Of a stretch of DNA of 64,000 nucleotides, positions 137 to 13,157 are shown in pieces; position 1 is the stretch's first letter, and every line of letters begins with the position of its first letter. A program made the translations under genes and the position numbers. Source of the stretch: Gordonia sp. SL306 (GTDB lineage: Bacteria > Actinomycetota > Actinomycetes > Mycobacteriales > Mycobacteriaceae); contig NZ_CP113063.1 in NCBI RefSeq assembly GCF_026625785.1, positions 1,612,001-1,676,000 of the forward strand, given 5' to 3'. Under the pieces are notes generated by a model that worked only from the letters and a program-made list of their open reading frames with translations, was not told the DNA's origin and searched no databases.

Positions 137-1408
137 CTAGTTCGCGTTCTGATCCGCCTTGGTGAGAATCACGTACTGTGCCGAGATCGCTTGGTGCACA
201 TCCTTTTTGTCCCGCGCACTGTAGTTGCCGACGTAACGCCCCTTCTGCACGTAGCACGCGTACCAGGTACCGGTGTCGAGAGTCTTGCTCTGACACTTGG
301 CGGCGGGCAGCCCGACCGGACTCTCCGCATCGGCCCAGCCCTGACTGCGGCTCGACGTCAGCGAGGTGTCGACGATGGTCTTCGCGCCATCCGGCGTGGA
401 CGCCCGGTACACGGTCGATTTCTCGATGGCATTGGCCGTGGAGCCGACGTCGGTGAGCATGGTGAAGTCGGTCTTGGGATCGCCGCTCATCTGCGCCATC
501 CCACGCGGTCCGTAGACGGCGCGGATGCTGGCGCCGGGCAACGCGGCCTTACCTGTCTTGATCTCGTCGTCGGGATAGGGCAACGCGTAGATCAGGACGT
601 GATTCTGGTCCACGACGGGTGCGCTGCTCCCTGTGATGCCCCTGGCCTTGGCCTCATCCTTCGTCGGCGTGGCGGGGAACTTGTCGATCAGCGCGCTCTG
701 GAGGGCAAGGGCCTTACGGACCGTCGGTTCCAACATGTTCTGCTGCGACGGCGTCGTCTCGAACCACTGATAGAGCACATAGGAGTTGTGCGGGGTGAAG
801 GCCATCATCTGCTTGTTCCCACCGCTGCTCCCCTGCACGACGAGCGTGTCGGGCAGCCCGGGCAACGTCGTCGTGCGCGATTTGTCGCCCGTCGCGGTCG
901 CGTCTGCCATCTGCCGGGCGGCGTCCCTGGCGTCCGCGGGGGTCAGGTAGCGGAGCACCGCGTTGTTGATGGCCCGCTTGGTCCCGGCGCGCAGGCTCTC
1001 GTCCGGAGTCGCGGCCGAGTCGACGAAGCCCATCAGCATCTTCTTGTTCGCGGGCACCTTCGCGGTGTCGGGAGCGAAGACCATGCCGAGGTTGCTCGGC
1101 CCGCCGATCACCATCGTCGGCATGTTCGCATTGGTGAGATCGTCGTCGATCTCGAACGGCACCACCACGAACTGGGCCATCCGCTGCCCCTCCACCTGCA
1201 GGATGTTGTCCTGGGTGGCCTTCCCGAAGGCCGGCCTCGGGGTGGTCGGATAGGCGCCGGTGTCGAGGGCCGCGACGTCGACAGACGGCTCGGACGCCGC
1301 GCCGGACGCGGACACGCTGGTCGCCTCTCCCTGGGTGGTGCACCCTGCGATCGCCGTGATCGCGGCGAGAACCCCCACCCAGCGCACCACCGGCTGCCAA
1401 TTCGTCAT
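137..1408 (-). CDS. Secreted lipoprotein, probably DUF7373-like
   Basis: The 423-residue product starts with a lipoprotein signal: a short N-region, a hydrophobic stretch (VGVLAAITAIAGC) and a lipobox whose cysteine is residue 23. It should be exported and lipid-anchored on the outer face of the membrane. The mature part is mixed alpha/beta with a cysteine pair near the C-terminus (AAKCQSK and WYACYVQ). It resembles the large lipoproteins of Mycobacteriales grouped as DUF7373, but this is from memory and the molecular role is unknown. It is a single gene diverging from the dynamin operon. A purine-rich GAGGGG lies upstream of the ATG. Confidence 0.75.
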   Translation of the reverse strand: MTNWQPVVRWVGVLAAITAIAGCTTQGEATSVSASGAASEPSVDVAALDTGAYPTTPRPAFGKATQDNILQVEGQRMAQFVVVPFEIDDDLTNANMPTMVIGGPSNLGMVFAPDTAKVPANKKMLMGFVDSAATPDESLRAGTKRAINNAVLRYLTPADARDAARQMADATATGDKSRTTTLPGLPDTLVVQGSSGGNKQMMAFTPHNSYVLYQWFETTPSQQNMLEPTVRKALALQSALIDKFPATPTKDEAKARGITGSSAPVVDQNHVLIYALPYPDDEIKTGKAALPGASIRAVYGPRGMAQMSGDPKTDFTMLTDVGSTANAIEKSTVYRASTPDGAKTIVDTSLTSSRSQGWADAESPVGLPAAKCQSKTLDTGTWYACYVQKGRYVGNYSARDKKDVHQAISAQYVILTKADQNAN

Positions 1409-1570
1409 CGTCCGTGTTCCCCTCGTCGTGTTCAGGCGCGCCGGATCTCCGGTGTTCTGGTTGCCGGCCGCTCGATGATCTATACATTTATTCGATGCGG
1501 TGGCGGCCGGAAAGGTTCCCCCCGAAACACGCCTTCACGATTGTGTTGTCAGAGTGCAGGGTAGTGCAGT

Positions 1571-1585
1571 ACTGAGATGATCAGT
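1571..1585. promoter_or_regulatory. Small dyad in the divergent lipoprotein/dynamin promoter region
   Basis: The 248-bp spacer 1409-1656 separates the divergent lipoprotein gene and dynamin operon and should hold both promoters. It contains a 5-bp dyad, ACTGA-n5-TCAGT, about 70 bp upstream of the first dynamin gene, and an AT-rich stretch at 1480-1496. Regulator identity is unknown; short dyads also occur by chance. Confidence 0.3.
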
Positions 1586-1656
1586 GCATTCACAGACTGG
1601 GTACGCTTCGGCTGGGTTTCTGTGTGGTGTGGTGAGAACCGGGGGACATGTCATAA

Positions 1657-3495
1657 ATGGGTGAGACTGCATCGCCGCGGGTCGCTGCGGCGTCTCCAGC
1701 AGCGCCGGCCGATGTCGCCGTCGGGGTGGTGGACGGGGCGGTCAAGGTGCTGCGCGCCTACCAGATGGACGCCCTGGCCGATGTCGCGCTGACCAAACTG
1801 AACCGTGACGACCAGACACGCACCGTGGTGGTCGTCGGGGAGGTTCAACGCGGCAAGAGTTCGCTGGTCAATGCCCTGATCGGGCGACGAGACCTGTGCC
1901 CGGTCGGCGTGGACGTCACGTCCTCGGTGTCGGTCAGCGTCACCCCCGATCCTGATCTCGGTTCCGCCAGCACCGCGGAGCTGTTCTTCGCCTCCGGACC
2001 GCGGCCGGTCGCGGCCGACGAACTCGGCCAGTGGGTCACCACGGCTGGCGCCCAGGTGTGCGACCCGCGGGTCGAGGAGCTCCCCACCGCTGCCGCCGTC
2101 GCGGTGCGCGACGCACGGATGACCGATGTGACCCTGGTGGACACCCCGGGCGTCGGCGGCCTCGACGTCGGGCTGGCGAAGCTGGCCACCCGGTCCGCCC
2201 AGCAGGCGTGCGTGCTCGTGCTGGTCTGCGACGCGTCGAGTCCGCTGACCGCCCCGGAGATGGCGTTCGTCCGCGAGGCGACGGCCACGGTGGACTCGGT
2301 GGTCGTGGTGGTCACCAAGACCGACAAGAACCTCCGCCGGTGGCGGCAGATCGTCGCCGAGAACGAACGAATCCTGGCCGAACAGCTCCACCGGCGGGTC
2401 ACCGTCGTCGGGGTGTCGAGCCTGCTGGCGGTGATGGCGGCCGACATCGCCGACGACGACCAGCGTGATCGGCTGGAGGCCGAGAGCGGGATCGCGACCC
2501 TGCGCATCGAACTCGCCCGCCGGCTCGACGAATCGTCGCGATCGCCACACATCGACGCCGTCCGCACGTGCCTGGAGGGGCTGCGCGTGATCCGCGGCCG
2601 GATCGGCCGCGAGCTCGACGCGGTGCAGGCAGGCGCGACGTCGCTGCCGGACCTGACCGCCGACCGGGACCGGCTCACCGAGCTCCAGGAACAATCCCGC
2701 CAGTGGGAGCAATACCTCGCCCGCGACCTCACTCTGCTGCGCCAGTCCGCGGTCGATGATCTCGAACGCCGCCTCGACGACGTGCGCGACAAGTGGACGA
2801 AGTATGTCAACACTCACGGCATGCAGGTGCTGCGGCGCAGCGAGCAGAAGTTCACCGCCGACATGCAGACCGATCTGCAACGCGCGATGGCCGAGACGCT
2901 GGCGGGGTTCCTCCAGCGATTGCACGACACGATCATCGAGCCCCGCTTCCCCGACGACCCCAGCGTGTGGGAAGAACTCAGCACGCGCATCGTTGCGTCG
3001 ATGCAGGACAAGCGGATCGAGACCCATCAGGTGGGCAGCAAACGTCACGGGCTTCTCGACCCGACGCTGCTGACGATGGGCGTGGTCGGATCGTCCACGC
3101 TCGGTGGACTTCTCGGCCTGTCGGCACTGATGGGCGTCGGTGTGGTGGTCGGAACCGTCTGGGTGGGTATCAATCTGAGCTTCCGTGCGATCCGGACCGG
3201 CAAGGCCAACCTGCTCACCTGGTTGCGCGAGACCATCGCGACCACCAAAGCCGCCACCGGCCGTCTCCTCGACAGTGCAGTGGCGCAGTCCCGCCCGGAG
3301 ATCATCATCCGCTACCGCGAATACCTGCGCGTGAACATCGACGAGTTGCAGAAGACGATCGGCGAGGTGCAGAAGGCGGCGTCGGCCGATGCCGCCGCCC
3401 GCGAGAAGTCGATCCAGCGCTTGACCAGCAACCTGGGGATCGTCGACAAACGCATCACGGCGGCCGAACAGCTCCTCACCGGGGCCGCCCGGTGA
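1657..3495 (+). CDS. Dynamin-like GTPase, IniA-like (first of a pair)
   Basis: The 612-residue protein has the GTPase motifs of bacterial dynamin-like proteins: a P-loop near residues 61-69 (GEVQRGKSS), a G3 motif DTPGVGG near 161 and a G4 TKTD near 220. A long helical middle follows, then a hydrophobic paddle-like segment at about residues 471-510 and a final helical region. Bacterial dynamins bind and remodel membranes. Length, domain order and the partner immediately downstream match IniA (about 640 residues) of the mycobacterial isoniazid-inducible iniBAC operon; orthology is inferred. The ATG is preceded by GGGGGAC. The next gene starts in a GTGA overlap, so the two are probably co-translated. 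Confidence 0.88.
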   Translation: MGETASPRVAAASPAAPADVAVGVVDGAVKVLRAYQMDALADVALTKLNRDDQTRTVVVVGEVQRGKSSLVNALIGRRDLCPVGVDVTSSVSVSVTPDPDLGSASTAELFFASGPRPVAADELGQWVTTAGAQVCDPRVEELPTAAAVAVRDARMTDVTLVDTPGVGGLDVGLAKLATRSAQQACVLVLVCDASSPLTAPEMAFVREATATVDSVVVVVTKTDKNLRRWRQIVAENERILAEQLHRRVTVVGVSSLLAVMAADIADDDQRDRLEAESGIATLRIELARRLDESSRSPHIDAVRTCLEGLRVIRGRIGRELDAVQAGATSLPDLTADRDRLTELQEQSRQWEQYLARDLTLLRQSAVDDLERRLDDVRDKWTKYVNTHGMQVLRRSEQKFTADMQTDLQRAMAETLAGFLQRLHDTIIEPRFPDDPSVWEELSTRIVASMQDKRIETHQVGSKRHGLLDPTLLTMGVVGSSTLGGLLGLSALMGVGVVVGTVWVGINLSFRAIRTGKANLLTWLRETIATTKAATGRLLDSAVAQSRPEIIIRYREYLRVNIDELQKTIGEVQKAASADAAAREKSIQRLTSNLGIVDKRITAAEQLLTGAAR

Positions 3496-4928
3496 ACGCC
3501 CCACGCCCGGGCGCCCGGGTGGACACCGATCCCGTACACGCCACCCTCGACCACGGGCTACACCAATTGGCCTCTCTCGGTGGCGATCTCGCAGCGCACG
3601 CCAACGCGATCGGCACCATCCTGTGGTCTCCGCCGCGGGTCGTGATCGTCGGTCGGCTCAAGGCAGGCAAGTCGACATTGGTGAACGCGTTGATCGGCGC
3701 ACCGGTCGCGGAGACCGCGGCCTTGGAGGCCACCAACGTGGTCACCGTCTACCAGGACGGTTCACCGTCGCGGGCCGAGGTGGTCGGGGTGGACGGCCGG
3801 CGACATCCGGTTGCGGTGCACCGCGACCATGCCATCCGACTTCCGCTGGAAACCCCCAACATCCAGTTCGTGGACAGGTGGTTGCCGTCGGCGGCACTAC
3901 GTCAGCTCACCCTCATCGACACTCCAGGGCTGTCGACGCTGACGGTGGCCAACGACTCGGCCACCCGCCGGGTGATGATCGACGGTTTCGAGCAGACACG
4001 CACCGCCTCGATCGACGCCGACGCCGCCGTCTTCCTGTTCGATGCGGCACCCCGATCCGATGAGATCGACTTCCTCTCGCAGTTGCCGTTCACGCCGCTC
4101 AACATGCTGGGCGTGTTGTCGCGGGCGGACTCCTTCGGAGAGGGCGCGCTGGGCCGGGTCGACCCGTTGTCCCACGCGGCCCGGCACGCCACGAGGATGG
4201 CAGATCGGTTGTCCGACACGGTGAGTGCGGTGGTGCCGATCTCCGGTCTGATGGCCCAGACCAGTCACACCGGGATGCTCACCGAGCAGTTGGCCGGTGC
4301 GCTGGCGCGGCTACAGGGGATGGCACCGCTCGATGTGGTGCGCACCTTCGACAACGACGACGCCGACAGCGTGCTGCCCCTGCCGATGCGGGAGCACCTG
4401 CTCGGACTCCTCGGCGAATACGGCGTGCTCAACGGACGGCAGATCGCCGCGGGCGGAGCCGCCGCCCTCAACGCGTGGTTGACCGAGCGGTCGGGCGTCG
4501 GCGGGTTGCATCGGGCACTGAACGCATCCACCGCCCGGTTCGCGATCCTGCACCGCGCACATCGCATCCTCGCGCGCCTCGACCAGCTCGCGTTCACCCA
4601 CCCGGCCCGCGAACACATCCGGTCGCTGACCATGCAGCTGCGGTCGTCGCCTGCGCTCCACCTGGTATCGGTACTCGAGGATTACCAGCGCATGCTGCGG
4701 ACCGACCCGCAGGCCACGGTCACCGAGGAACTGCACACCATCCTCGTCGCCACGTCCGCGGCGGGACGCGTCGGATTACCCGATCAAGCACCCGCGCATG
4801 CGGTATCCGCCGAAGCGCGACGACGGCTCGCGACGGCGCAGCAACGGTCCCTCGCCACCAGCTCGGCAGCCGAGGACGCTGCCATCGTCACCCTCGTCCG
4901 AACCTACACGCCGCTGACCCACGCGTGA
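3492..4928 (+). CDS. Dynamin-like GTPase, IniC-like (second of a pair)
   Basis: The frame is open further upstream, but the GTG at 3492 overlapping the preceding TGA is the natural start and gives 478 residues. The P-loop GRLKAGKST lies near residues 54-62 and DTPGL near 143; the G4 position reads SRAD near 210 instead of the usual TKxD. There is no long hydrophobic paddle, unlike its partner. This matches IniC (about 490 residues), the second dynamin of the iniBAC operon. A pair with one membrane-inserting and one paddle-less subunit suggests a hetero-oligomeric membrane-remodelling complex. The Hsp70-like gene follows directly. Confidence 0.86.
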   Translation: MNAPRPGARVDTDPVHATLDHGLHQLASLGGDLAAHANAIGTILWSPPRVVIVGRLKAGKSTLVNALIGAPVAETAALEATNVVTVYQDGSPSRAEVVGVDGRRHPVAVHRDHAIRLPLETPNIQFVDRWLPSAALRQLTLIDTPGLSTLTVANDSATRRVMIDGFEQTRTASIDADAAVFLFDAAPRSDEIDFLSQLPFTPLNMLGVLSRADSFGEGALGRVDPLSHAARHATRMADRLSDTVSAVVPISGLMAQTSHTGMLTEQLAGALARLQGMAPLDVVRTFDNDDADSVLPLPMREHLLGLLGEYGVLNGRQIAAGGAAALNAWLTERSGVGGLHRALNASTARFAILHRAHRILARLDQLAFTHPAREHIRSLTMQLRSSPALHLVSVLEDYQRMLRTDPQATVTEELHTILVATSAAGRVGLPDQAPAHAVSAEARRRLATAQQRSLATSSAAEDAAIVTLVRTYTPLTHA

Positions 4929-4969
4929 ACAGCCACCCGAAACCGCAGAGGACACAGGACACTTCGCAC

Positions 4970-6868
4970 ATGTCACCCACCACATGGACCCTGGCCATCG
5001 ACTTCGGAACCTCCAATTCCGCTGCCGCACACTCGGGTGCGACCAGTGGCGGTATCGAGACGCTGTCGCTGACCCACACCAGCAATCTCATGCCGTCGGC
5101 GGTCTACGTCGGCGCACCGGACCGCATCACGGTCGGCGACGCCGCCGTCGACCAGGCCCAACAGAATCCGGCCGGCTTCGTGGCCTCCCCGAAAAGGCTG
5201 ATCGGCGGTGGCCCGATGTGTACCGTCAACGGGTACACCTTCCCGACCTACGTTCTCGTGGCGGCGGTGGTGGGCGCGATCCTGCAGCGGGGCAAAGCCG
5301 CCCACGCCGGCATGCCGCCCGCCCAGGTGGTGATCACGCACCCGGAGGCGTGGGCACAGCAGCAGATCCGCGTTCTGATCGACGGCGCCGCCCAGGCGGG
5401 CATCGACCCGGCACGTATCACCACCATCTCCGAGCCGCGCGCCGCGGCCGCACACTACTCGCGCTCGCACGCGATGCAGCCGGGCGCCCGGATCGCCGTC
5501 TTCGATTTCGGCGGCGGCACACTGGACATCGCCGTCCTGACGGTCACCAGCGAGAATGCCTTCGGGGTGGTGGCCGCCCGCGGCAACAACGGTCTGGGCG
5601 GAAAGAACCTCGACGCCCTCGTCCAGCGTTGGGTGGAGCAGCGGCTCTCCGACCGCGATGAGAATCTGGTCACCTATCTGCGGCGGCAGGCGCCGCTCGA
5701 CGTCGTCCAGAGCCTGCAAGACTCGATCCGACGCGCCAAGGAGCTGCTGTCGGAGGCACCGTCCGCGACCATCACCGTGCCCGCACCCGCCGGTCGGCAG
5801 ACCCTGCAGATCACCCGCGACGAGTTCGACGAGCTGATCACCCCCGCCGTGGACCAGGCGATGCAGTTGACCAGGGCAACGCTGCTCGATGCCGGGATCA
5901 CCCATCCGGAACAACTCACCGCCCTGTATCTGACCGGCGGGTCGTCGCGGATTCCGCTGGTCCAGCAACGGCTCGGCGAGCTCGGCCCCGTTGCCACCCT
6001 CGATGACCCGAAAACAGTTGTCGCCCAAGGTGCGTTGGTGACCGCACTGGCCGAGAACGCACCGATCACCAACGAACGGGCCACCCTCGTCCCCGGAGCC
6101 GGGGATCTCATGCCGTCGTGGCACGGACAGCCGCCCGGCCAACCATCGGGGCGGGCGGCCGGTCCGCGGACACCGCCCGGCGGTCAGCAATACGGTCAAC
6201 CCCCACGTGTGGTGCCCGAGTTCGCCGGACCCGATGTGCCGTCCACCGGCACGGGCCGGCGGTGGGGACGCATCGGCGCGATCGCCGTGGCGGTCGTCGC
6301 CGTCGTCGGCATCGTCGCCGGGACCATCGCACTGATGTCACGTGACGACGGCGGCGCGGACGACCCCGGTCAGTCCGGACAGACCGCTGCGGCTGCGACC
6401 GCGACGGGTGAGACCGGCACCGACGGCGGCATGATCATGACCGACGCGACCCAGTTGATGAGTACTCTGCCCGGTCCGCTGCGCGAGGCCACCACGAACT
6501 GCCGCAAGGTCGGTTTCACCAAGAACGACGCGGTGCGCATGCAATGCAACTTCGCCGAAGACGGCGAACTGGCCGATCTCAAGGGCACCGACACGCTGTC
6601 CTATTTCATGACGTTCGAGGTCGACGAGAGCGAGGCGAAGGCCAAGATCGTCGGTATCCGCAACGGCACCTACAGCCAGGGCAAGGGCACGCTCGTCGAG
6701 GACGCGGACCGGCTCTCGGCCGCGGACATCGACCTCGCCTCGACCGTGTCCACCGACTACAACATCGACTACGCCAGCACCGCCTCGAGCCTCGTCATCA
6801 CGGTGTTCGGCATCGGTTCGGTCGACGAGGGCAAGACGTTCCTGACTCGATCCGGACTGATTTCCTGA
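4970..6868 (+). CDS. Membrane-anchored Hsp70-like protein with an external C-terminal domain
   Basis: The 632-residue protein opens with an actin/Hsp70 ATPase fold: phosphate-1 motif IDFGTSNS near residues 9-16, phosphate-2 motif FDFGGGTLDIAV near 178-189 and adenosine motif TGGSSR near 322. The normal Hsp70 substrate-binding domain is absent. A Pro/Gly/Gln-rich linker leads to one transmembrane helix at about 436-458 and then a roughly 150-residue domain, probably outside the membrane. This is the architecture of a membrane-tethered regulatory or scaffold ATPase rather than a general chaperone. ATG 4970 is chosen because the fold begins right after it; GTG 4925, overlapping the upstream stop as GTGA, is an alternative adding 15 residues. 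Confidence 0.85.
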   Translation: MSPTTWTLAIDFGTSNSAAAHSGATSGGIETLSLTHTSNLMPSAVYVGAPDRITVGDAAVDQAQQNPAGFVASPKRLIGGGPMCTVNGYTFPTYVLVAAVVGAILQRGKAAHAGMPPAQVVITHPEAWAQQQIRVLIDGAAQAGIDPARITTISEPRAAAAHYSRSHAMQPGARIAVFDFGGGTLDIAVLTVTSENAFGVVAARGNNGLGGKNLDALVQRWVEQRLSDRDENLVTYLRRQAPLDVVQSLQDSIRRAKELLSEAPSATITVPAPAGRQTLQITRDEFDELITPAVDQAMQLTRATLLDAGITHPEQLTALYLTGGSSRIPLVQQRLGELGPVATLDDPKTVVAQGALVTALAENAPITNERATLVPGAGDLMPSWHGQPPGQPSGRAAGPRTPPGGQQYGQPPRVVPEFAGPDVPSTGTGRRWGRIGAIAVAVVAVVGIVAGTIALMSRDDGGADDPGQSGQTAAAATATGETGTDGGMIMTDATQLMSTLPGPLREATTNCRKVGFTKNDAVRMQCNFAEDGELADLKGTDTLSYFMTFEVDESEAKAKIVGIRNGTYSQGKGTLVEDADRLSAADIDLASTVSTDYNIDYASTASSLVITVFGIGSVDEGKTFLTRSGLIS

Positions 6869-6956
6869 CGCCGGGAACATTCCCGCCGGGTCGCCGCATC
6901 CAATCCCCGACAACAGCACAACAGCTTCGTTCACCGAACTCAGGAAGGCGGACCCC

Positions 6957-7736
6957 ATGTCCGACAGCACACAGACCAGCACCCCGGACGTCCCCGAGAA
7001 CCCGGTGATCAGCCCCGACGCTCCGTACGATGCCTCCGCGCCGGACAACACGAGCCCCGCGAGCGCCAGTGCCCCGACACCACCGACGACACCGGCGACA
7101 CCGGATACGCACGCCCCCACGGGTGGCGAGGCCGGTGTGAAGTCGGCCGTCGACACCGACGGCGACGGCAACCCGGACGTCGTGCACGCCACCGATGCGT
7201 CCGGTACCGACATCAACGCCTACCTCGACGACCACGGCAACGTGATGCTCGTGGAGGCCGACACCGACGGCAACGGCACCTTCGACACGCTGGTCCACGC
7301 CGGCCAGGACGGGAGCACCATCGTCGAGGTCGACTCGGACGACGACGGGCAGGGCGACACGATCGCCACGCTCGACGCGAACGGACAACTGCGACAGGTC
7401 GACACCCTCGATGACGGACATGTCGTCAGCTCGACGATCGACGTCGACGGCGACGGCACCCCCGATGTGCAACTGGTGGACACCGACCACGACGGCGGAT
7501 TCGACGCGACGATCCTCGACGTCGACAACGACGGCAAGGCCGACACCGTCCTGCGCGACACTGACGGCGACGGGCAGGCCGACGCCATGGGGCACATCAA
7601 CGGCGGCGCAGACGATCCCGCCATGCCCGACGACTCGTCGGCGCCGGACGACGACCCGTCGGTGCCCGACACCGACGCGGGCGACTACGACGATCACGGA
7701 GCACACGACTCGCACGACATCCCCGACGTGATCTGA
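6957..7736 (+). CDS. Acidic DxDxDG-repeat protein
   Basis: The 259-residue, strongly acidic protein has a Pro/Thr/Ala-rich first 55 residues and then repeats of the type DTDGDGNPD, DTDGNGTFD, DSDDDGQGD, DVDGDGTPD and DTDGDGQAD, spaced about 20-30 residues apart. Such loops resemble the calcium-binding loops of EF-hands, dockerins and thrombospondin type-3 repeats, so calcium binding is plausible but untested. No signal peptide or membrane helix is visible. The gene lies 88 bp after the Hsp70-like gene, and the hairpin 45 bp past its stop suggests it ends the transcript. DUF6802-type proteins are a possible relative; I cannot confirm this. Confidence 0.75.
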   Translation: MSDSTQTSTPDVPENPVISPDAPYDASAPDNTSPASASAPTPPTTPATPDTHAPTGGEAGVKSAVDTDGDGNPDVVHATDASGTDINAYLDDHGNVMLVEADTDGNGTFDTLVHAGQDGSTIVEVDSDDDGQGDTIATLDANGQLRQVDTLDDGHVVSSTIDVDGDGTPDVQLVDTDHDGGFDATILDVDNDGKADTVLRDTDGDGQADAMGHINGGADDPAMPDDSSAPDDDPSVPDTDAGDYDDHGAHDSHDIPDVI

Positions 7737-7780
7737 CCACGCACCACCGAGCCCGTTCCCGGGCAGCTCACTCCCCTCAC

Positions 7781-7815
7781 GACGGGGGCGGCGACCTCAT
7801 GTCGCCGCCCCCGTC
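7781..7815 (+). terminator. 15-bp perfect hairpin ending the dynamin/Hsp70 transcript
   Basis: Arms 7781-7795 and 7801-7815 pair perfectly around a 5-base loop. It lies 45 bp after the DxDxDG-repeat gene. An in-frame ATG at 7799 for the next gene falls inside the loop, which argues against that start and for the GTG at 7865. Confidence 0.75.
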
Positions 7816-7864
7816 GGCATTTCACCTCGATCACCGACCCCGTCGGCAGAACGGAAGCGGACCC

Positions 7865-10234
7865 GTGACGAACGTGATGATCCCCGGCAGTGTGTGCGTG
7901 GACGGCGCCCTTCATCCGCTCGGCGCCACGCCGTGTCTCACCGTCGGCCGCCACGTCGACAACGACATCGTGGTCGATCACCCGCTGGTGGCCGACCATC
8001 ACCTGCGCATCGAGTGGCGTGGCCGTGAGTGGTTTCTCGCCGTCGCCGACGCCGGTGCACCGATGTTCGCCGCCGGCGGGCCCGTCACGGAGATGGCGAT
8101 CACCGGTACCGCCCAGGTCCATCTCGGCAGTCCGGGGCGCGGGCCCGTGCTGGTCGTCGCGCTCGCCGGCGACCACCCGGGCGCACACACCACCGGCGGC
8201 CGCCCCCTCGACGGCCCGGGCATCGGGTTCCCGACGCCCGGGCCGCCACCGATGCCACGCTCGCTCCGCGGCGCACCTCATCTGCAGCCCATGCACCAGA
8301 ACCTCGACGGCGGGACCGTGCTCGCACTGCGCGACGGCGTGTGCACCATCGGGCGGACCCCCGGCAACGACCTGGTCGTCGACGACATGCTCGTCTCCCG
8401 CAGGCACGCCCACATCACCACCGACCGCGACGGGATCCGGCTCGTCGATCTCGGCGGCATCAACGGCACCCATGTCAACGGTCACCGTGTCGGCGGCGCA
8501 GTGCTGCACGACGGTGATGTCGTGACCATCGGCAACAGCGACTTCCTGGTGTCCGGACGTGCACTGGTCAGGGGTCACGCGCCCGGCGCCGTCGAGGCCG
8601 GGCTACATGTGCACGGCGTCAGCCTGGTCGTCGACGGCGACAAACACCTACTCCGCGACGTCGAGTTCAGCGCTGCGCCCGGCACGTTGACCGCGGTGAT
8701 CGGTCCGTCGGGAGCAGGCAAATCGACGGTGTCGAAGGTCGCTGCCGGGCTCGGGACCCCGTCCACCGGCTATGTCACCTTCGAGGGCCGCGACGTCCAC
8801 GCCGACTACGACTCGCTGCGAACCCGGATCGGCATGGTCCCGCAGCAAGACGTCCTGCACCACAAGCTCACCCTCCGGCAGGCACTGCGCTACGCCGCGG
8901 AACTGCGACTCCCTCCGGACATCTCCACCACCGACCGTGACGCGGTGATCACCGGAGTGCTCGGCGAACTGCAGTTGCTCGAGCATCTGGACACCCGGGT
9001 CGACAAGTTGTCCGGCGGACAACGCAAGCGAGCGTCGGTGGCGATGGAACTGCTCACCGGTCCGTCGCTGCTGATCCTCGACGAACCGACGTCCGGATTG
9101 GACCCGGCGCTGGACCGGCAGGTGATGGCCACGCTGCGGCGCCTCGCCGACGCCGGCCGTGTGGTCGTCGTGGTCACCCATTCGCTGACCCACCTGTCGA
9201 TGTGCGATCAGGTCCTGCTCCTCGCACCGGGCGGCAAGACCGCGTTCTGCGGCGCTCCCGACCAGGTGGGCGCGGCGATGGGCACCGGCGACTGGGCGGA
9301 GATCTTCGCGTTCGTCGCCGCCCACCCCGACACGGCCCACGAGCAACACCGACGTTCCCGGCCGCCGTCGCCCGCGGTGCGACCACGCAGGCCATCCGGT
9401 CCGTCGATGTCGGCACCACACCGCGATCCGGTGCGGCAGGCCGGCACCATCGCCCGCCGGCAGATCCGCCTGATCCTCGCCGACACCGGATATCTCGTAT
9501 TCCTCGCGGTGATGCCGATCGTGCTCGGGCTGTTGACCCTGGTCATCCCGGGGTCGAGCGGCTTCGCGATCAATCGGGCACCCGACACCGCGGGCGAGTC
9601 CTTGCAGATCCTGGTGATCCTCACCGTCGGGGCCACGTTCATGGGCACCGCGCTGACCGTGCGCGACCTGGTCGCCGAACGCGACATCTACCATCGCGAG
9701 CGCGCCGTCGGACTGCAACCCGGCGCGTACCTGTCGGCGAAGGTCATCGTGTTCGGTGCGGCCGCAGTCGTCCAGACGTCGGTGATGGTCGCGATCACCT
9801 ACGCAGGCAAAGGTGTCCCGGCCGGTGGGGTGCTGGTACCGGCGCCCCTCGAACTCTTCGGTGCCGTCGCCGTACTCGCCTGTGTCAGCGCTCTGGTCGG
9901 GCTGGCCATCTCCGCTTCGGTGCGTTCCGTCGAGCAGACGATGCCGCCGATGGTCATCGCCGTCATCTCACAGCTGGTGTTCTGCGGCGGCCTGTTCCGG
10001 TTGACCACCCCGGGGCTGCAACAACTGTCGTGGTTGTTCCCGTCGTACTGGGGTTACGCGGTGTCGGCGGCGTCGGTGGACCTCAACACGATCGCACCGC
10101 TGGCACCTCAGACCGCCGACGCCCAGTTGTGGGAGCCGTCGATCTCGACCGTCGTGCTCGGGTACAGCGCCCTGCTGTTGACCGCGACGATCCTGATCGG
10201 CGTCACCGCCTCGAGGCTCCGCCTCGGCCGCTGA
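7865..10234 (+). CDS. FHA-FHA-ABC transporter fusion (Rv1747-like)
   Basis: The 789-residue protein has two forkhead-associated domains (first GRHVDNDIVV near residue 29; second GRTPGNDLVV near 163 with SRRH and NGT/N signatures). An ABC ATPase follows, with Walker A GPSGAGKST near 280, signature LSGGQRKR near 382 and Walker B LLILDEPTSGLDP near 402. The end is an ABC-2 type permease of about six helices from residue 535. FHA domains bind phosphothreonine, so export is probably controlled by a Ser/Thr kinase. The layout matches mycobacterial Rv1747, linked to cell-wall lipid export. GTG 7865 has GGAAG upstream; ATG 7799 lies in a terminator loop. The cargo is unknown. Confidence 0.88.
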   Translation: MTNVMIPGSVCVDGALHPLGATPCLTVGRHVDNDIVVDHPLVADHHLRIEWRGREWFLAVADAGAPMFAAGGPVTEMAITGTAQVHLGSPGRGPVLVVALAGDHPGAHTTGGRPLDGPGIGFPTPGPPPMPRSLRGAPHLQPMHQNLDGGTVLALRDGVCTIGRTPGNDLVVDDMLVSRRHAHITTDRDGIRLVDLGGINGTHVNGHRVGGAVLHDGDVVTIGNSDFLVSGRALVRGHAPGAVEAGLHVHGVSLVVDGDKHLLRDVEFSAAPGTLTAVIGPSGAGKSTVSKVAAGLGTPSTGYVTFEGRDVHADYDSLRTRIGMVPQQDVLHHKLTLRQALRYAAELRLPPDISTTDRDAVITGVLGELQLLEHLDTRVDKLSGGQRKRASVAMELLTGPSLLILDEPTSGLDPALDRQVMATLRRLADAGRVVVVVTHSLTHLSMCDQVLLLAPGGKTAFCGAPDQVGAAMGTGDWAEIFAFVAAHPDTAHEQHRRSRPPSPAVRPRRPSGPSMSAPHRDPVRQAGTIARRQIRLILADTGYLVFLAVMPIVLGLLTLVIPGSSGFAINRAPDTAGESLQILVILTVGATFMGTALTVRDLVAERDIYHRERAVGLQPGAYLSAKVIVFGAAAVVQTSVMVAITYAGKGVPAGGVLVPAPLELFGAVAVLACVSALVGLAISASVRSVEQTMPPMVIAVISQLVFCGGLFRLTTPGLQQLSWLFPSYWGYAVSAASVDLNTIAPLAPQTADAQLWEPSISTVVLGYSALLLTATILIGVTASRLRLGR

Positions 10235-10365
10235 CTGTCGTTATGCGACCGTGACCGACGTCGCGATCGCGTTGCACACCGCGCCCGGCAGCGGCAGGTT
10301 GTCCGCATTCGCACCTAGCGTCGAAGCATGGCCTCGACCCGACCCCCACACGCACGGACAGACCG

Positions 10366-11454
10366 ATGAGAGTGCTGGTCACCGGTGCCACCGGATATGT
10401 CGGCTCCCGTCTCGTGTGTGCGCTGGTCGACCGCGGCGACGACGTCGTCGTGACCAGCCGCCGACCGGACTCGCTGCGACGTTTCGGCTGGTACGGCCGC
10501 GTCACGGCGATCGCCATGGACGCCGGCGACAGCGAGTCGGCGCACGATGCGGTCGCGCGCGCCGGCGACATCGATGCGCTCTACTTCCTGGTCCACGGGA
10601 TCGGTCAGCAGGACTTCGACGAAGCCGACACGCGCGCCGCGCACAACGTCGCGGTCGCGGCACGCGCGGCGAACGTGCCCCGGATCGTCTACCTCGGCGG
10701 CTTCGTACCCGACTGTGACCACGACGACCTGTCCAGGCATCTGCGCAGTCGCGCCGAGGTCGGCGCCGCCCTCGACATCCCCGGCGGCCCCGATCTGGTG
10801 TGGCTACGAGCCGCCGTGATCCTCGGCGCCGGGTCCACATCGTTCGAGATCATCCGATACGTGGCCGATCGGCTCGCGGTGATCCCGCAACCGGGCTGGG
10901 TCGACAACGCGATGGACCCGATCTCGGTCCGCGATGTCATCCACTACCTGGTCGAGGTCGTCGACCCGACCTTCCCTGCGGGGGCCTACGACATCGCAGG
11001 CCCCGACGTCGGCGCACGGTACGAGTCGGTTCTGTCGGAGTACATCCGTGCCATCCGGCAGCCCCGTCTGCGACTGCCGGTCCCCTTCGTGAACTCGCAC
11101 CTCGCCGGGCGGGTGACCGGCATGCTGGTCCCGGTACCGAGCTCGTTGACCGCCGATCTCGTGGCCTCGCTCAGCCAGCCGATGACCGCGTCCGAGCACT
11201 CCATCCGCGGCCTGGTACCGGAACCGCCGAACGGACTGATCCCGATGCGGGAGGCCATCGAATCGGCCGTACACACCACCTCACCCCGCTCGGTGTGTGC
11301 GCTCGCGGACCCTCATCACCTCGCCGACACCGACCCGGGATGGGCAGGCGGCGACCTGATGAGGATCCGGCGTGCGGTCTCCGGCGGGATCGGTTCGATC
11401 GTCGGCTTCACGACGCGTCGGGTGCGAGGCGTGGTATCCCTGCTGTCAGGATGA
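10366..11454 (+). CDS. NAD(P)-binding epimerase-like (atypical SDR) protein
   Basis: The 362-residue protein begins with a Rossmann dinucleotide motif, VTGATGYVGSRL, at residues 4-15 followed by a basic pair (SRRP) that suits NADPH. It resembles NAD(P)H-binding proteins of the atypical extended-SDR class, which often act as reductases or regulatory sensors. A full YxxxK catalytic pair is not obvious, so catalysis is uncertain. Its stop overlaps the start of the CPBP protease gene (ATGA), so the two are co-translated. No link to the catabolic genes is evident. Confidence 0.78.
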   Translation: MRVLVTGATGYVGSRLVCALVDRGDDVVVTSRRPDSLRRFGWYGRVTAIAMDAGDSESAHDAVARAGDIDALYFLVHGIGQQDFDEADTRAAHNVAVAARAANVPRIVYLGGFVPDCDHDDLSRHLRSRAEVGAALDIPGGPDLVWLRAAVILGAGSTSFEIIRYVADRLAVIPQPGWVDNAMDPISVRDVIHYLVEVVDPTFPAGAYDIAGPDVGARYESVLSEYIRAIRQPRLRLPVPFVNSHLAGRVTGMLVPVPSSLTADLVASLSQPMTASEHSIRGLVPEPPNGLIPMREAIESAVHTTSPRSVCALADPHHLADTDPGWAGGDLMRIRRAVSGGIGSIVGFTTRRVRGVVSLLSG

Positions 11455-12170
11455 CTCTCACTCTCGACGACCTCAGGCGGCGACTCAGCGCACCGGCACC
11501 GGCCACCCGATTCGACGATCCGGCGACCTTGACCCGCCGACGACGGGTGGTCGCGATCTTCCTAGTGCTGGGCGCCGCGATCCTGGGCGTCTCGCTCTCA
11601 TCCGACCCGGGCGATTCGTCCTTCTATCCGTTGACGATCGCCTTGGCGGCGGTCTGGATCGTCGGCGGGCTGCTCTCCGGGCCGATTCGGCTGGGCCGAT
11701 TCGGCCTTCGTGCCGGATCGGCGACGGGCCGATCGTCGACGATCGGCGCTGCCACCCTCGGCACGGCGGTCGGTCTGCTCGTCGGAGCGGCATTCGTGAT
11801 CGGGGCACTCATCACCCGGGAGATCCCGACCCTCGCCGACCTGGTCACCCAGGTCCTCGACCTCGGTGATCGCGGCAGCATCATCGCTGTCACCGTGATC
11901 ACCCTCGGCAACGGCCTGGCCGAGGAAGTGTTCTTCCGCGGCGGCGTCTACTCGGCCGCACAGAATCACCACCCGGTGCTGGTCTCGACGGTGTTGTACA
12001 CCCTCGCCACCCTCGCCAGTGGCAATCCGATGCTCGGATTCGCCGCGGTCATCCTCGGCGCGGTCTGCGCACTACTACGACGAAGCACCGACGGGGTCTT
12101 GGCACCCATCTGCACGCACGTCGTGTGGGGCGCCGTGGTCCTGTTCTGTCTGCCGCCGATCTTCGGGTGA
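11451..12170 (+). CDS. CPBP-family intramembrane metalloprotease
   Basis: The 239-residue integral membrane protein has six or more hydrophobic segments. It carries the CPBP (Abi, CAAX-protease-like) motif EEVFFRG near residues 155-162 and a later histidine motif THVVWG near 223. In this family the paired glutamates and histidines bind a metal and cleave peptides within the membrane; prokaryotic members act in bacteriocin immunity, envelope stress or protein maturation. The ATG overlaps the upstream stop as ATGA. The substrate is unknown. Confidence 0.83.
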   Translation: MTLTLDDLRRRLSAPAPATRFDDPATLTRRRRVVAIFLVLGAAILGVSLSSDPGDSSFYPLTIALAAVWIVGGLLSGPIRLGRFGLRAGSATGRSSTIGAATLGTAVGLLVGAAFVIGALITREIPTLADLVTQVLDLGDRGSIIAVTVITLGNGLAEEVFFRGGVYSAAQNHHPVLVSTVLYTLATLASGNPMLGFAAVILGAVCALLRRSTDGVLAPICTHVVWGAVVLFCLPPIFG

Positions 12171-12302
12171 GTCCGCGGCCGTGGTACCGACGAAGGGCTG
12201 CCGCCCGACGACCGCGAGCACGGCACCCAGTCCGAACGGACGGTTCGACTCCGGCCCGGCGCGTGTCTCGGGGTCGTCGAGGAGGACGGCCACGCTCACC
12301 GA

Positions 12303-13157
12303 TCAGGCCAGCCACACCGGGACGCCGGTGTCCGCGTGGTCTGGCAGGCGGACCAGTCGAGCCGGGTCCGCCGCAAGATCGTCTGCGGTGAGGTCACCGT
12401 CGCCGAACAGGACGAACGCCACGCCCTCCGCCGACGCGCCATCCCAGAGGCCGGCAGAGCAGGGCGTCGACGACGGCTCGCGGACCAGGATCGAACGGCC
12501 GCGACCCCAGGTCGCGAAGAACCATCCGTCGCCGGCCTCGATGACATCGCCGAGCAGAGCCCGCCCCAGAAGGTCGTGTGCGCGGTCGAGGTCGGACACG
12601 GTCATTCCGACGATCGCCATCTCACGGTCCGGCGTGCCGGCTCGGGGGAAGTCCGCCGGCGCGGTCGAGAACGCCCCTTCGGCGACGATCGTCTCGTCGT
12701 CGGCCCGCACCACCTGGACGAGGGTTCCGATACCCGATGCCTTCGGATGGATGAAGACCTCGGTCCAGATCGGGTCCGTCCGTGAGTCCCCGAAGGTCGC
12801 GAAGCCGCGGCGACGCAGGTCGGCCAGGGTCTCGTCGAGGTCGGGCACCTTGAAGGTGAGGTGATGCGCCGACGGTCCGCGCTGTTCCAGGAACCGGTCC
12901 ATGAAACTGCCCGGCTTGTCGGGCGCGATGAACTCCATCCGGAGGCCGTCACCGTAGACGAGCTGGTACGGGGCGTACTCACCGGCGACTCCACCGTATC
13001 CCCATCGCCCGCCGAGTTCGCCGACGAACCGCGGATAGGCGTCCTCCCAGCGCCGCACACCCACCGCGAGGTGATCGAGGGTCGGCCAGCGCACGTTCGA
13101 GACGTTCCGGTCCACTGCCGTGTCGACGCTGTGCGTCGATCCGGATGTCGAGGGCAT
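12303..13157 (-). CDS. VOC (glyoxalase/dioxygenase fold) family protein
   Basis: The 284-residue protein has two vicinal-oxygen-chelate repeats: DHLAVGV near residue 28 with a metal-ligand region HHLTF near 96, and a second weaker module from about residue 160. It resembles glyoxalase-like or methylmalonyl-CoA epimerase-like proteins found next to CoA-metabolism genes. A definite reaction cannot be assigned. It diverges from the TetR gene at 13329, and the spacer between them holds a dyad that may be that regulator's operator. Confidence 0.75.
   Translation of the reverse strand: MPSTSGSTHSVDTAVDRNVSNVRWPTLDHLAVGVRRWEDAYPRFVGELGGRWGYGGVAGEYAPYQLVYGDGLRMEFIAPDKPGSFMDRFLEQRGPSAHHLTFKVPDLDETLADLRRRGFATFGDSRTDPIWTEVFIHPKASGIGTLVQVVRADDETIVAEGAFSTAPADFPRAGTPDREMAIVGMTVSDLDRAHDLLGRALLGDVIEAGDGWFFATWGRGRSILVREPSSTPCSAGLWDGASAEGVAFVLFGDGDLTADDLAADPARLVRLPDHADTGVPVWLA

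Follow-up and report, generated by a model that had tools for sequence, protein, structure and literature searches.

What holds two dynamin-like GTPases, an Hsp70-like ATPase, an acidic repeat protein and an ABC exporter together in one bacterial locus, and do these genes belong to a single system? The question is raised by a 64,000-nucleotide stretch of the Gordonia sp. SL306 genome (NZ_CP113063.1, positions 1,612,001 to 1,676,000 of the forward strand), which is referred to here as the window and whose numbering is used throughout unless a position is marked as genome. A sequence-only reading of the window had placed the GTPases (dyn1 and dyn2), an Hsp70-like protein with a transmembrane helix (Hsp70TM), a protein of DxDxDG loops and an exporter with FHA domains in this order within one locus, and the order is borne out by the open reading frames and by family searches. 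As one locus the proposal holds for the core, since the dynamins, Hsp70TM and their associated genes are a conserved mobile unit; the true unit is however larger, adding a DUF7373 lipoprotein, an extracytoplasmic function (ECF) sigma factor and an acidic partner protein, and the exporter occurs only in its Gordonia version. The core is made up of the sigma factor, the lipoprotein, the two dynamins, the Hsp70 and the repeat protein. Tentatively, we read this unit as a mobile, self-regulated bacterial-dynamin envelope module, related to yet distinct from iniBAC, in which Hsp70TM would pass an outside signal to the dynamin pair.

Conservation of the unit was assessed in 121 genomes of the family, taking dyn1 as present at 198 bits or more and Hsp70TM at an E value of 4e-56 or better, with a natural gap under both thresholds in the score lists. 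Both genes were found in 37 genomes, Hsp70TM alone in one, dyn1 alone in none and neither in 83 (Fisher p 2e-30, not corrected for phylogeny). The two lie no more than 15 kb apart in 32 of the 37, the others being four fragmented assemblies and one genome with the genes on separate contigs. The distribution within genera is patchy, some version occurring in 27 of 59 Gordonia species, and looser Hsp70-dynamin neighbours reach Gulosibacter, Nakamurella and Micromonosporaceae. Across 18 loci the distance matrices of dyn1, dyn2 and Hsp70TM correlate with each other at r 0.82–0.94, as against 0.35–0.45 with DnaK of the same genomes, and the partial correlations given DnaK are 0.79–0.93. These matching distances, together with the poor agreement with DnaK, mean that the genes have been inherited together and largely apart from their host. 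An accidental neighbourhood of unrelated genes could appeal to the varying distances to the exporter and to the hairpin that lies in between, but for the core genes it is already refuted by the co-occurrence, the matching trees, the plasmid records and an empty insertion site, and its overall probability is negligible.

Plasmids also carry the unit. Among the matches listed, at least 32 of the 33 plasmid records bearing dyn1 also hold Hsp70TM; they come from Gordonia, Rhodococcus and Prescottella, including Prescottella equi, many are typed mobilizable, and their labels say only ‘dynamin family protein’, ‘GTPase’ or ‘Hsp70 family protein’. On one contig of 101,696 bp (G044:C11) dyn1 is divided between the two ends (L062 and L096), which makes a circular plasmid of ~102 kb probable. 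The chromosomal copy of the window can be compared with an empty site in Gordonia tangerina (G090), where a rhodanese gene adjoins an SDR gene (window 10366), while in the genome of the window a block of at most 11.7 kb separates the two. The order of the inserted block is acidic protein, ECF sigma factor, lipoprotein, dyn1, dyn2, Hsp70TM, repeat protein and exporter, and the same block stands at the same site in two further Gordonia species (L204 and L205). In other Gordonia loci the acidic protein and the sigma factor come after the exporter or the Hsp70, a difference in position which suggests that the chromosomal copy is circularly permuted and may have arisen by integration of a circle. 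No convincing direct repeats were found in the flanks of the insert, and a viral origin was considered and rejected, the match being single and weak. Synteny in many genera, co-occurrence, co-inheritance, plasmid carriage and the empty site together support the conserved gene neighbourhood that the sequence-only reading had anticipated, and no lack of synteny in relatives was found.

The plasmid records and the permuted insert would also suit a service to the plasmids themselves, in which reshaping of the envelope would aid conjugation or help to maintain large actinobacterial plasmids stably, and the chromosomal copies would be leftovers. We regard this as quite unlikely, since intact chromosomal genes occupy the same site in three Gordonia genomes, the conserved block has no transfer gene and the module is chromosomal in Gulosibacter.

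The neighbours that recur with the module are the ECF sigma factor, the acidic partner and the DUF7373 lipoprotein, joined in Rhodococcus by a C39-type peptidase. Two genomes of one genus encode the Hsp70 ATPase domain, a transmembrane helix and DUF7373 in a single chain (L045:8158-10644 and L223:7675-10158). These parts come from two separate genes in the window, and the fusion therefore ties the lipoprotein to the Hsp70. A common origin of DUF7373 and the outside domain of Hsp70TM was rejected, as the profile comparison was null (probability 0.2%) and the gene fusion is the only link between them. Near the module on two Gordonia plasmids lies a gene for an MspA-family porin (L075:16396-17052 and L076:15990-16649). 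The layout of the locus is given in Table 1. In addition, dyn2 begins with a GTG that overlaps the stop codon of dyn1 (GTGA), gaps of 41 bp and 88 bp separate dyn2 from Hsp70TM and Hsp70TM from the repeat protein gene, and no further gene lies between dyn1 and the divergent lipoprotein gene. No sigma-70 consensus promoter was found at the locus, although such a consensus is uninformative for an ECF promoter.

Table 1. Features of the dynamin-Hsp70 locus, in window positions unless marked as genome positions.
Feature	Position	Strand	Remarks
Acidic 139-aa protein	genome 1,610,847-1,611,266		Left of window; start of inserted block
ECF sigma factor	genome 1,611,286-1,611,840		Left of window; inside inserted block
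DUF7373 lipoprotein, 423 aa	137..1408	-	Divergent from dyn1, within inserted block; Pfam DUF7373 3e-46, DUF7373_C 3e-25
dyn1, dynamin-like GTPase, 612 aa	1657..3495	+	Dynamin_N 1e-16; IniA (6j72) 4e-14
dyn2, second dynamin-like GTPase, 478 aa	3492..4928	+	Dynamin_N 2e-9; IniA (6j72) 7e-5
Hsp70TM, 632 aa	4970..6868	+	Hsp70 ATPase domain, Pro-rich linker, one transmembrane helix, outside domain; HSP70 4e-37
Hsp70TM outside domain, last 150 residues	6416..6865	+	Two conserved cysteines; AlphaFold pLDDT 93.7
Acidic DxDxDG repeat protein, 259 aa	6957..7736	+	Seven loops, 22% Asp
Perfect 16-bp hairpin, 5-base loop	7780..7816		Separates repeat protein gene from exporter gene; possible terminator, no T run
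FHA-FHA-ABC exporter, Rv1747 type	7865..10234	+	Longest open reading frame from 7799; GTG 7865 preferred; FHA, ABC_tran, ABC2_membrane

IniA and IniC, the dynamins of the drug-response operon iniBAC, are implicated in drug tolerance and vesicle release of tuberculosis bacteria. The GTPases of the window both contain a P-loop, a DTPG and a G4-like motif, which in dyn1 lie at residues 61, 162 and 220 (TKTD), and dyn1 has a paddle-like hydrophobic stretch near residue 480. Both match the IniA structure (PDB 6j72; Table 1), and the iniBAC feature of two adjacent IniA/IniC-like dynamin GTPases is present in the locus. About 25 of the 37 module genomes also encode a second dynamin, 25–34% identical to those of the module and often close to the true dnaK, as is iniBAC in M. 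tuberculosis. Judged by score and position, with no rooted tree, the module dynamins are best read as paralogues and not orthologues of IniA and IniC, and the module as a paralogous system. The sequence-only reading was right to take iniBAC as a precedent for the dynamins, which are similar to IniA, but the module is no extension of iniBAC, since many genomes that carry it have IniA-like paralogues at another place.

The two systems share an adjacent pair of IniA-similar dynamins, an acidic or low-complexity partner and an envelope theme, and they are bridged by a distant locus (L048) in which Hsp70TM and both dynamins occur with an IniR homologue (191 bits, under the family cut-off). They differ in that the module is mobile, its dynamins form a separate lineage, it contains a transmembrane Hsp70 and a DUF7373 lipoprotein, and an ECF sigma factor takes the place of IniR. 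No IniB gene was found upstream of dyn1, where the divergent lipoprotein gene stands, and no IniR regulator adjoins the cassette of the window, the IniR homologue being confined to L048. A 340-aa gene of L048 was considered as IniB and rejected, having no Pfam or NCBIfam match. A loose link to Hsp70 has been seen before, a dnaK-like gene having been noted beside iniR in M. smegmatis (PMC5760070). IniA cuts membranes in vitro (PMC6715688) and vesicle release is reported to need both IniA and IniC (as cited in PMC10903876).

In Hsp70TM the HSP70 family match covers residues 9–359 only and matches to DnaK structures stop at 357–359. The Hsp70 ATPase domain with its nucleotide motifs is present, and no C-terminal substrate-binding domain was found, all matches ending near residue 360. 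A Pro-rich linker leads from there to a single hydrophobic helix at about residues 431–449, which is followed by some 180 residues. The family and structure matches and the transmembrane call thus uphold the earlier description of an Hsp70-like ATPase that lacks the substrate-binding domain and carries a transmembrane helix and an outside domain. Relatives retain the layout with one transmembrane helix, the ATP-binding motifs and two outside cysteines, and C29 and C44 are invariant in the alignment of the outside domain (A2). AlphaFold models this domain with high confidence (Table 1). Foldseek returned no match under 0.001, and the matches from VIA-align at Z 6–7, which include LpqN, Apa, MTC28 and the PknH sensor domain, are all weak (maximum Z 7.3); no named fold is therefore claimed for it.

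A second Hsp70TM copy in Rhodococcus sp. SMB37 (L111:6527-8893) has an RCC1-like beta-propeller as its outside domain, and a distant Gordonia Hsp70 relative beside dynamins (L222:9054-10823) has a biotin/lipoyl-like stretch and two C-terminal transmembrane helices. One Gordonia genome contains five Hsp70-like genes within ~30 kb, and a dynamin pair close by runs the other way (L219; G335:C1:4131000-4150900).

The repeat protein contains seven DxDxDG loops, more than chance would give: 20,000 shuffles of its residues yielded a mean of 0.39 and in no case seven. Neither a hydrophobic segment nor a double-glycine leader was seen in it. The match to DUF6802 is under the cut-off (0.0089), while neighbours in relatives match this family at 1e-20. 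Its predicted structure is a beta model of moderate confidence (pLDDT 69) with no ions in the model, and the Foldseek matches are to beta-sheet proteins (TarM and OspA; E about 1e-4 to 1e-3, low TM-scores) that we read as a likeness of shape only.

The exporter combines two FHA domains, an ABC domain and an ABC2 permease in one chain. Both FHA domains had been taken as phosphothreonine-reading; two are indeed present, but, read by eye, only FHA-2 (GR, SRRH, NG) retains the binding residues. In FHA-1 Ala replaces Ser and the Asn is missing, so that only FHA-2 looks competent and FHA-1 looks degenerate. We find the exporter in 13 Gordonia module loci but neither in four others from this genus nor on the plasmids examined, making it a true but genus-limited member, found in the Gordonia version only. 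Its cassette copies form a clade of their own (support 1.0). Chromosomal relatives have the gene next to Dop; the genome of the window has no copy there (L099; G000:C1:5002000-5018000) and its sole copy is in the cassette, as if this had replaced the usual one. The layout of two FHA domains, ABC domain and permease is shared with Rv1747 of the Rv1747/PknF system, from which the cassette exporter differs in lying inside a dynamin cassette, in its apparently degenerate FHA-1 and in having no adjacent kinase gene such as pknF; no kinase was found among the window genes from 137 to 13157 or the cassette genes. The exporter may also be a separate transcript, since the listed ATG at 7799 falls inside a perfect 16-bp hairpin and the GTG at 7865 is the likelier start. 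Positions 7737-7830 fold at -48 kcal/mol, and although no T-run terminator was found between the repeat protein and exporter genes, transcription may well break at this hairpin.

Could the module instead be an export route, along which the exporter, a C39 peptidase or both process the acidic repeat protein and bring it to the cell surface, with the dynamins acting on that route? The repeat protein gene precedes the exporter in most Gordonia loci and C39-type peptidases recur in the Rhodococcus version. Against this, most versions lack the exporter, the repeat protein has no visible double-glycine leader, and ABCG-type half-exporters usually carry lipids or small molecules, making such a route very improbable.

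The functional steps that we infer from the gene content, domain layout, conservation as a unit, mobility and lipoprotein-Hsp70 fusion would run as follows. The DUF7373 lipoprotein, together with the part of Hsp70TM that lies outside, would pick up an envelope signal beyond the plasma membrane, and the single transmembrane helix would relay this signal to the cytoplasmic ATPase domain, whose ATP cycle may act as a clamp or switch. Lacking a substrate-binding domain, Hsp70TM is not proposed to be a folding chaperone; it would place, load or dismantle a heterotypic pair of dynamins at the cytoplasmic surface of the plasma membrane, which this pair may then cut or reshape in repair or vesicle shedding. 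The acidic DxDxDG protein shows no export signal and could be a cytosolic scaffold or a Ca2+-responsive partner. The adjoining ECF sigma factor would turn the set on, and in Gordonia a phosphothreonine-reading exporter would have been added. Membrane repair or envelope stress, the role proposed in the sequence-only reading, stays the favoured candidate.

A sensor layout is suggested by the conserved topology with one transmembrane helix, the outside cysteines and the exchangeable outside domains (DUF7373, RCC1). The envelope theme is consistent with the lipoprotein, with the MspA porin near two plasmid copies and with the finding that deletion of Rv1747 or pknF in M. tuberculosis raises iniBAC expression (PMC3908365), which links this type of exporter to dynamins independently. 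Four points weigh against the proposal. The fusion evidence is limited to one genus; the fold matches of the outside domain (Z 6–7) appear too weak for proving a shared fold; the cassette showed neither a J-protein gene nor a GrpE gene that might drive the Hsp70; and the many plasmid copies and patchy presence also fit plasmid service, or the defence role considered below.

A bolder and more doubtful version of the envelope module is a transmembrane receptor-motor, in which an Hsp70 ATPase domain, its substrate-binding domain lost, would read the envelope through exchangeable outside domains (its own, DUF7373 or the RCC1 propeller) and drive the dynamin pair while the cytosolic Ca2+-loop protein detects Ca2+ influx at membrane wounds, giving a membrane-repair or vesiculation machine spread by plasmids. 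The most direct predictions of the envelope module are that the outside domain of the Hsp70 binds the DUF7373 lipoprotein and that the ATPase domain binds the dynamins. A widespread sister module that names partners for dynamins (a transmembrane Hsp70, a lipoprotein, an acidic repeat protein and a sigma factor) opens the control of bacterial dynamins to experiment in environmental Gordonia, and it points to a role for the Hsp70 motor beyond protein folding.

In the open-access literature searched, no paper was found that names DUF7373, DUF6802 or a dynamin-Hsp70 pair as a system. Several known systems nevertheless share parts of the module. Eleos (LeoA/LeoBC), which differs in gene content, has dynamin-like GTPases, and its LeoBC and LeoA profiles match dyn1 at 5e-15 and 5e-13 and dyn2 weakly. 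The module might accordingly be imagined as an Eleos-like dynamin defence against phages, where Hsp70TM would detect their entry at the membrane through outside domains that vary and then set off the dynamins. A patchy, mobile, plasmid-borne module would fit this, as would the restriction and toxin-antitoxin genes near some plasmid copies. We nonetheless think it unlikely, because the Leo scores are a general dynamin likeness that any dynamin may give, the cassette has no effector or nuclease and has its own ECF sigma factor, and in Gulosibacter the region around the module is a stable housekeeping one.

Bacterial dynamins act as pairs, and the Nostoc dynamin beside BDLP1 carries a DnaJ-like domain (PMC6104087). 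The module resembles such side-by-side dynamins (Campylobacter DLP1/2, Streptomyces DynA/B and Nostoc BDLP), although none described there has a transmembrane Hsp70, DUF7373, a DxDxDG protein or an ECF sigma factor. Similar in part are also the DO-GTPase/GAP1 systems, in which often paired GTPases occur in actinobacteria with an Hsp70 lacking the peptide-binding domain (PMC7159879). Their GTPases are however a separate TRAFAC family with zinc ribbons, accompanied by GAP1, FNIII and GrpE proteins (PMC7159879). No GrpE or FNIII family match was obtained among the cassette proteins scanned, and the cassette GTPases are dynamins, matching Dynamin_N and IniA.

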